Shown piece after piece: positions 12,912 through 57,819 of a stretch of DNA of 64,000 nt. The stretch comes from Erysipelotrichaceae bacterium NK3D112. GTDB lineage: Bacteria; Bacillota_I; Bacilli_A; Erysipelotrichales; Erysipelotrichaceae. The translations under genes and the position numbers were made by a program. The stretch is taken from NCBI GenBank assembly GCA_000701725.1, contig JNJQ01000005.1, positions 62,001 to 126,000 on the forward strand, written 5' to 3'. The notes beneath the pieces are model-generated. The model did not search any database and was not told the origin of the DNA. It saw nothing but the letters and a program-made list of their open reading frames with translations. Every line of letters begins with the position of its first letter. Positions within the stretch are counted from its first letter, which is position 1.

Positions 12912-12917
12912 GGCGCT

Positions 12918-13156
12918 AAAGCTGAGAAAGGAAGTAGTATTTCCGCAAAAGCTTTCAAGCGAGCCCTGGATGGTGGAAGAGGGTAAAGGAAAGCGGAGAG
13001 AACGTGTCCCGGAGCAGGATTTGCGAAGCGCAGGCCGAGTGAATTCCCGTAGAAACCGCGTTAAGGGAAAGAGTGTCCGCCAGGCATATGGCGGGAATCA
13101 AGGTGGCACCGCGATGATATCGTCCTTTGAGCATACGCTCAGAGGACGTTTTTAGT
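12918..13156 (+). promoter_or_regulatory. T-box leader, arginine specifier CGT
   Basis: The T-box sequence GGTGGCACCGCG is at 13102-13113, followed by the terminator stem GTCCTTTGAGC/GCTCAGAGGAC with a T run (13122-13156). In stem I the AGTA element (12932-12936 area) is closed by TTTCCGC pairing with GCGGAGA; the opposite side reads GAA-CGT-G, so the specifier is CGT (arginine, 13003-13005). The acceptor-end triplet TGGC pairs with a tRNA ending GCCA; the tRNA-Arg gene in this window indeed has a G discriminator. The riboswitch would let the operon be read when tRNA-Arg is uncharged. Confidence 0.9.
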
Positions 13157-33443: not shown

Positions 33444-33508
33444 AGAAAACGCTTACTTTGAAAATTTCTCAAAAAAGGTGTTGACGTAATTTTTTATAGT
33501 GCTATATT
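33444..33508 (+). promoter_or_regulatory. Promoter of the hairpin-array RNA, with cre-like site
   Basis: TTGACG (33481-33486), a 16-base spacer and TATATT (33503-33508) predict transcription from about 33515. Upstream at 33444-33457, AGAAAACGCTTACT matches 12 of 14 positions of the CcpA cre consensus, though only loosely at the ends. Confidence 0.65.
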
Positions 33509-33514
33509 CATTCG

Positions 33515-33728
33515 TGCTGAGAACAAACCGGATGAATCATCCGGGCGAAATACAGCGACAAACTGATCCATGTGATCAGGCGAAATACAGCGTCAAACTG
33601 ACCCGGAAGGGTCAGGCGAAATACAACTGCAAATCGATGGCTCAGCCATCGAGCGAAATACAACGCCGAACCGGTGATCATCACCGGGCGATATATAACT
33701 GATACAGGAACCCGCGGGTTCCTTTTTT
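33515..33728 (+). ncRNA. Small RNA built of six hairpins on exact 18-base linkers
   Basis: In this gap with no credible gene lie five hairpins plus a terminator: 33528-33544, 33563-33579, 33598-33615, 33634-33652, 33671-33687 and 33706-33723 (then TTTTTT to 33728). Stem sequences differ completely (for example ccggat/atccgg, ctgaccc/gggtcag, tcgatggc/gccatcga), but pairing is kept. Every linker is exactly 18 bases. The first ten bases of four linkers are identical, GCGAAATACA, and three linkers end in CAAA; the fifth is a degenerate copy. A promoter stands directly upstream. The pattern (variable stems, conserved single strands, terminator in register) points to a structured RNA with repeated binding sites. 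I do not recognise the class. Confidence 0.72.
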
Positions 33729-43162: not shown

Positions 43163-43239
43163 TTTTGAAAAAACTTTCATAAAATTGTGCATAAATTTAC
43201 ATTGACATTGAAATCGTTAACAAGTATCATCTCCATATA

Positions 43240-43461
43240 AATTCGGTGAACAGAAGAGTAACTTCAGCAGTCCACAAGCGAGCCGGAACAGAGTGTGAGT
43301 CCGGCGGCAACGGCTGAAGCGAAGCGCATCTGGGAGAAGTTCCTCTGAACTCAGTAGGAGGAAACGTGTATCCGCGTTAAGGATTGAGCGGCTGTATTTA
43401 CAGCAACCAGTGTGGTACCGCGATTTTTCAAGTCGTCTCTGGATCAGAGACGGCTTTTTTG
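43240..43461 (+). promoter_or_regulatory. T-box leader, probable arginine specifier CGC
   Basis: The T-box core TGTGGTACCGCG lies at 43411-43422 and is followed by the terminator GTCGTCTCTG/CAGAGACGGC plus six Ts (43432-43460). In stem I, AGAGTAA sits opposite the specifier side, bounded by CTTCAGC/GCTGAAG above and CAGA/TCTG below. Aligned to the argG T-box in this window, the specifier is CGC (Arg, 43325-43327) followed by a purine. The acceptor-pairing TGGT would prefer an A discriminator and reach a G only by wobble, so the amino acid is less certain than the T-box itself. Confidence 0.85.
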
Positions 43462-57759: not shown

Positions 57760-57819
57760 AAAATGAAAACGCTTCAATTATTATGAAATTGTGATGGAAA
57801 CGTTTACGGTAACGTTTCC
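57756..57819 (+). promoter_or_regulatory. Promoter with cre-like site and double operator of the sugar ABC operon
   Basis: TTGAAA (57756-57761), 17 bases and TATTAT (57779-57784) form the promoter. TGAAAACGCTTCAA (57764-57777), between the boxes, resembles a CcpA cre site. GGAAACGTTTAC and GTAACGTTTCC (57796-57819) make a near-palindromic double LacI-type operator just after the start. Confidence 0.8.

Follow-up and report, generated by a model that had tools for sequence, protein, structure and literature searches.

The window, that is the whole stretch of 64,000 nucleotides analyzed here, contains a small RNA gene located between a divergent PAP2 gene and a convergent D-2-hydroxyacid dehydrogenase gene (PF02826), its downstream neighbour. 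Including its operator, which is also upstream of the PAP2 gene, the RNA gene spans about 33444-33728. Hairpins were assigned by folding and a script parse, linkers by direct reading and a script parse. The features are as follows:

33444-33457, no strand assigned: cre-like operator AGAAAACGCTTACT, centred on C33450|G33451 at a distance of 30 bp to the -35 box
33481-33486, + strand: -35 box TTGACG; homologues keep TTGACA or TTGCAA
33503-33508, + strand: -10 box TATATT with a 16 bp spacer and an extended-10 TG, kept in homologues
33515-33527, + strand: predicted transcription start, placed from the -10 position, and 5' leader
33528-33544, + strand: hairpin 1, CCGGATG-AAT-CATCCGG (7 bp)
33545-33562, + strand: linker 1, GCGAAATACAGCGACAAA (18 nt)
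33563-33579, + strand: hairpin 2, CTGATC-CATGT-GATCAG (6 bp)
33580-33597, + strand: linker 2, GCGAAATACAGCGTCAAA (18 nt)
33598-33615, + strand: hairpin 3, CTGACCC-GGAA-GGGTCAG (7 bp, GGAA loop)
33616-33633, + strand: linker 3, GCGAAATACAACTGCAAA (18 nt)
33634-33652, + strand: hairpin 4, TCGATGGC-TCA-GCCATCGA (8 bp)
33653-33670, + strand: linker 4, GCGAAATACAACGCCGAA (18 nt)
33671-33687, + strand: hairpin 5, CCGGTGA-TCA-TCACCGG (7 bp)
33688-33705, + strand: linker 5, GCGATATATAACTGATAC (18 nt)
33706-33728, + strand: intrinsic terminator, AGGAACC-CGCG-GGTTCCT (7 bp stem) followed by a T-run

The original prediction had described five hairpins and a terminator hairpin, separated by five linkers of exactly 18 nt, at 33515-33728. 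This description proved correct to the base, and the coordinates were right. The proposed promoter was confirmed as TTGACG-N16-TATATT with TG ahead of the -10 box, and the identical start noted for four of the five linkers is GCGAAATACA; the remaining linker starts with GCGATATATA. The 5' leader is conserved (GTGCTGAGAACAAA, GCTGAAAGNAA in relatives). Folding, which had been suggested as a check, yielded -85.6 kcal/mol for the array RNA compared to -59.6 +/- 4.9 kcal/mol in shuffled sequences (z = -5.3), and none of 200 shuffles was as stable. The predicted fold, obtained by pseudoknot-free folding, is a series of isolated simple hairpins. A two-linker pattern occurs three times in the window and was absent from 100 shuffles. 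A protein-coding reading was rejected, as the unit length is not a multiple of three and the in-frame translations are not conserved. The array is present as a single copy in its own genome, where a search with the unit revealed no further copies at E up to 10. Hence, if the RNA has target mRNAs, they lack the full element, and no mRNA regulon with the same element was found in this search.

In order to collect homologues, synteny with the downstream dehydrogenase (PF02826) was followed across 70 genomes of the genus (rumen/gut Erysipelotrichaceae), and a covariance model (R1) of one unit, linker-hairpin-linker, was then applied. Arrays were detected in 23 of the 70 genomes, with one array locus per genome, which is split between contigs in fragmented assemblies. 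The covariance search proposed with the original prediction thus recovered homologues with covarying stems in 22 further species. In many relatives the array lies downstream of the dehydrogenase and has other stem sequences and another number of hairpins; in several species it adjoins other genes. Since the neighbour genes vary, none of them is the constant partner of the array, and a partner would be encoded elsewhere. Weak matches in 40 array-less genomes of the genus look like chance (E 0.2-5). Outside the genus no arrays were found, with one of 60 genera in the family and one of 80 in the order positive under strict filters that may lose weak matches. A search of about 85,000 species genomes with the two-linker DNA pattern returned 12 records, all of them Erysipelotrichaceae or 'Solobacterium sp.' assemblies, with stated sources that include goat ileum and sheep rumen. 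Searches of phage records and viral contigs gave no match, and a blastn search of the family with the complete element recovered only the element itself and a 21-nt match in one other genus.

The claim that the array matches no known RNA class was supported. Neither the window array nor 15 homologous loci matched any Rfam family over the gathering score, the only matches being at chance level (E 1.5-7.5). Elsewhere in the window, two T-box leaders (43237-43443 and 12915-13130) and a cobalamin riboswitch (565-758) scored above the Rfam gathering score. No description of such an RNA was found in the literature searched, which did not extend to one large RNA-motif survey (doi 10.1093/nar/gkx699); an Erysipelotrichaceae motif is named in only one of the papers found, and that motif is idnO, which is not the same element. 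The array is a conserved RNA gene of a previously uncatalogued family, found only in one genus, and its existence is solidly established.

The anatomy of the RNA was analyzed in 22 arrays comprising 109 linkers. Seventy-seven linkers are 18 nt long, while 16, 17, 19 and 20 nt were found 5, 22, 4 and 1 times, respectively; many of the 17-nt linkers result from a chance extra pair at the stem foot. The linker consensus is GYGAWAUAYAAMNNCAAA. Conservation reaches at least 90% at positions 1, 3, 4, 6-8, 10, 17 and 18. Position 5 holds A and U with equal frequency, positions 2 and 9 are C or U, position 4 is A or G, and positions 12-14 are free. Correlations between linker positions were also considered as a signal and discarded, as they probably reflect shared ancestry and misaligned variants. 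Across arrays, stem length varies between 5 and 11 bp, loop length between 3 and 12 nt, and the period of the repeat between 31 and 43 nt. Linker length remains steady while stems, loops and period float, identifying the linker as the constant element. The stem feet show a Y-Y-G-R pattern on the 5' side, and GNRA sequences account for 25 of 61 four-base loops, where about 2 are expected for random bases.

The number of hairpins per array varies from about 3 to 12. Compared with the window array, one relative (L012) carries an additional unit. In another (L015, strand -, about 2470-2883), a three-unit block with the stems CTGACTGC, TCGATGAC and TCGATGGG is present in nearly three copies, a direct sign of array growth by tandem duplication. 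The longest array, with 12 hairpins, lies at about 1400-1800 of L062 (genome G232). There the standard unit is mixed with a second type, in which the linker GCGTAATATAGCAAGG or GTGATATATGACAAGTG precedes an (A)CCTGA stem.

The original prediction had interpreted variable yet paired stems and constant single strands as compensatory evolution, and covariation in the homologues supports this interpretation. In an alignment of 36 units, 97.6% of the cells in seven aligned stem pairs are standard pairs, and all seven pairs have changed on both sides. We counted 77 double-change cells compared to 22 in shuffles, and a slid partner strand pairs at most to 45%. The alignment mixes paralogous and orthologous units, so that these values demonstrate pairing and do not count independent events. 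Two close relatives (L048 and L054) differ at corresponding stems by a C-G to U-A exchange and a U-G pair. Over all stem pairs, G-U pairs amount to 4%. In the five outermost stem pairs of the 36-unit alignment (A2; window stems such as 33563-33579), G-U is absent and transitions are common.

Upstream of the promoter we identified a helix-phased cre-like operator, which is new here and had been missed in the original prediction. A box like TGAAARCGYTTTCA, scoring at least 10/12 against the B. subtilis cre consensus TGAAAGCGCTTTCA, precedes the -35 box in helical phase in 17 of 22 arrays; the other five have no convincing box. Among random windows of equal length, 6% score as high. The distance from the box centre to the start of the -35 box is 20-21 bp in three arrays, 29-30 bp in six, 40-41 bp in four and 51 bp in four. 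These distances are steps of one helical turn (with close relatives collapsed, Rayleigh p about 2e-5 for a period picked once the data had been seen). Moreover, the operator stays with the array RNA where the neighbour genes differ. Cre sites located upstream of -35 are activating in B. subtilis, and the effect of CcpA depends on the helix face (PMC3463425). The phased distances thus predict helix-face-dependent activation by a CcpA-type regulator, and the array RNA is probably switched on by a sugar-sensing regulator. The genome itself encodes a LacI-family protein for which CcpA is by far the best family, at 244 bits for the full model and thus below the curated cut-off of 442. Two further full-score cre-like boxes are located in the window at 57770 and 11750 (ATGAAAACGCTTCAAT and AGTGAAACGTTTCATT). 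Like the CcpA-controlled sRNAs of Gram-positive bacteria, the array is a stand-alone sRNA gene with a cre-like operator; its operator, however, occupies the activation position upstream of -35 and is in helical phase. In RNA architecture, the array is unrelated to the individual CcpA-linked sRNAs.

A sponge or scaffold with CsrB-like logic had been proposed for the array. Literal membership in the CsrB/RsmZ family can be rejected, since CsrA (PF02599) was not detected in any of the 70 genus genomes, with the control search positive in E. coli, B. subtilis and T. maritima, and repeated GGA or ANGGA sites are absent: the loops vary, the linker consensus lacks GGA, and GGA occurs only in isolation. 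Likewise, the CsrB and RsmX/Y/Z models of Rfam were among those without a match over the gathering score in the window array and the 15 homologous loci. The broader sponge idea remains a plausible hypothesis. As in CsrB/CsrC and RsmX/Y/Z, several stem-loops are followed by a terminator and copy number differs by species; repeated sites, expression under a global regulator and a multi-site titration logic are common to both, the first two as predictions for the array. In the CsrB/Rsm RNAs the invariant element is A(N)GGA, located mainly in loops (PMC4005645), whereas the array combines variable loops with constant 18-nt linkers.

These data suggest a model in which the array is a stand-alone gene for a trans-acting sRNA of about 215 nt in the window, longer or shorter in relatives. 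A CcpA-type regulator of the LacI family, bound on one helix face upstream of -35, would activate its transcription when good sugars are plentiful. The stable short hairpins would keep the 18-nt single strands at a set length and serve as insulating, interchangeable spacers, and each linker together with the base of the flanking stems would form one site for the same predicted partner. This partner would most likely be an RNA-binding protein touching GYGAWAUAYA at the 5' end of the linker and CAAA at its 3' end. The RNA would then act as a multivalent decoy or scaffold, its capacity set by the number of units and altered by tandem duplication. Indeed, the arrays provide multiple equivalent sites in single strands, in numbers that differ from species to species, as expected for a multi-site decoy. 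Fixed length, conserved ends, a free centre and variable copy number are best fitted by repeated docking sites whose partner touches both ends, and a protein is favoured over an RNA partner because position 5 tolerates A and U alike and the centre is unconstrained. We regard a sugar-activated decoy or scaffold, with linkers as binding sites for a putative protein and hairpins as spacers, as the preferred reading, at a probability somewhat short of even. The more specific proposal, in which the linkers of a catabolite-activated RNA are ruler-like docking sites for a putative RNA-binding regulator and the arrays represent a new class of regulatory ribonucleoprotein, is offered only tentatively.

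Alternatively, the linkers could be identical antisense seeds for several mRNAs or for a second small RNA, the hairpins keeping the seeds open. The seeds of sRNAs are typically conserved single strands that are accessible, and C/T at linker positions 2 and 9 as well as A/G at position 4 would preserve pairing to G or U. On the other hand, a position 5 that is half A and half T, and a free stretch at 12-14 within a fixed length of 18 nt, fit poorly to one fixed RNA. When the own genome was searched on both strands, no linker match with fewer than 2 mismatches was found outside the array, and pairing of the 16S 3' tail to the linker is weak. Hfq (PF17209) was found in none of the 70 genus genomes, with five control genomes positive, although many Gram-positive sRNAs act without Hfq. 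We therefore consider base pairing through the linkers unlikely, yet worth keeping in mind.

Similarly, the hairpin-linker-hairpin junction might be a self-folding module in tandem, a tertiary motif or small aptamer, making the RNA a structural or sensing device. A folded junction would likewise be expected to show a fixed linker length and the YYGR pattern at the stem base, and GNRA loops are frequent. However, stem lengths vary by about half an A-form turn and loops vary freely, so that there is no fixed geometry between junctions, and folding predicts isolated hairpins. A self-folding device is thus rather improbable.

The main alternative raised in the original prediction, an array of DNA palindromes acting as protein-binding or cruciform sites, was weakened. 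Template switching can perfect quasi-palindromes without selection on an RNA, and the purely Watson-Crick outermost five pairs of the alignment are what DNA palindromes would show. By contrast, the linkers keep their length, whereas the period varies between 31 and 43 bp, with no helical phasing from unit to unit, and promoter, leader and terminator are conserved together with the array. The enrichment of GNRA loops, the G-U pairs, and the U-G pair and C-G to U-A change at matching positions of L048 and L054 likewise speak against it, and we judge this origin very unlikely.

In ToxI, units of about 36 nt are repeated in tandem between a promoter and a terminator, which the 35-37 nt repeats of the array resemble. 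Nevertheless, a type III antitoxin RNA is the least credible reading, given that the near-identical pseudoknot repeats of ToxI, CptI and TenpI, otherwise alike in repeat length, promoter and terminator, contrast with the simple hairpins predicted here by pseudoknot-free folding, that stem sequences differ between repeats within every array, and that no toxin gene is adjacent: downstream on the same strand there is none, with the convergent dehydrogenase in this place and other genes flanking arrays elsewhere.

With the multivalent decoy or scaffold as the preferred reading, the arrays would reverse the usual design of decoy RNAs, in that the hairpins are replaceable spacers and the single strands are fixed; conservation is stricter for linker length than for most sequence positions. 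In the phased cre-like operators, evolution may have left a natural record of how a CcpA-type regulator activates from one face of the helix. The array would provide a direct handle on a putative RNA-binding partner in the Erysipelotrichaceae, in which searches detected neither CsrA nor Hfq. If the more specific proposal of ruler-like docking sites is true, a lineage without detected CsrA or Hfq has its own titration system for carbon control.
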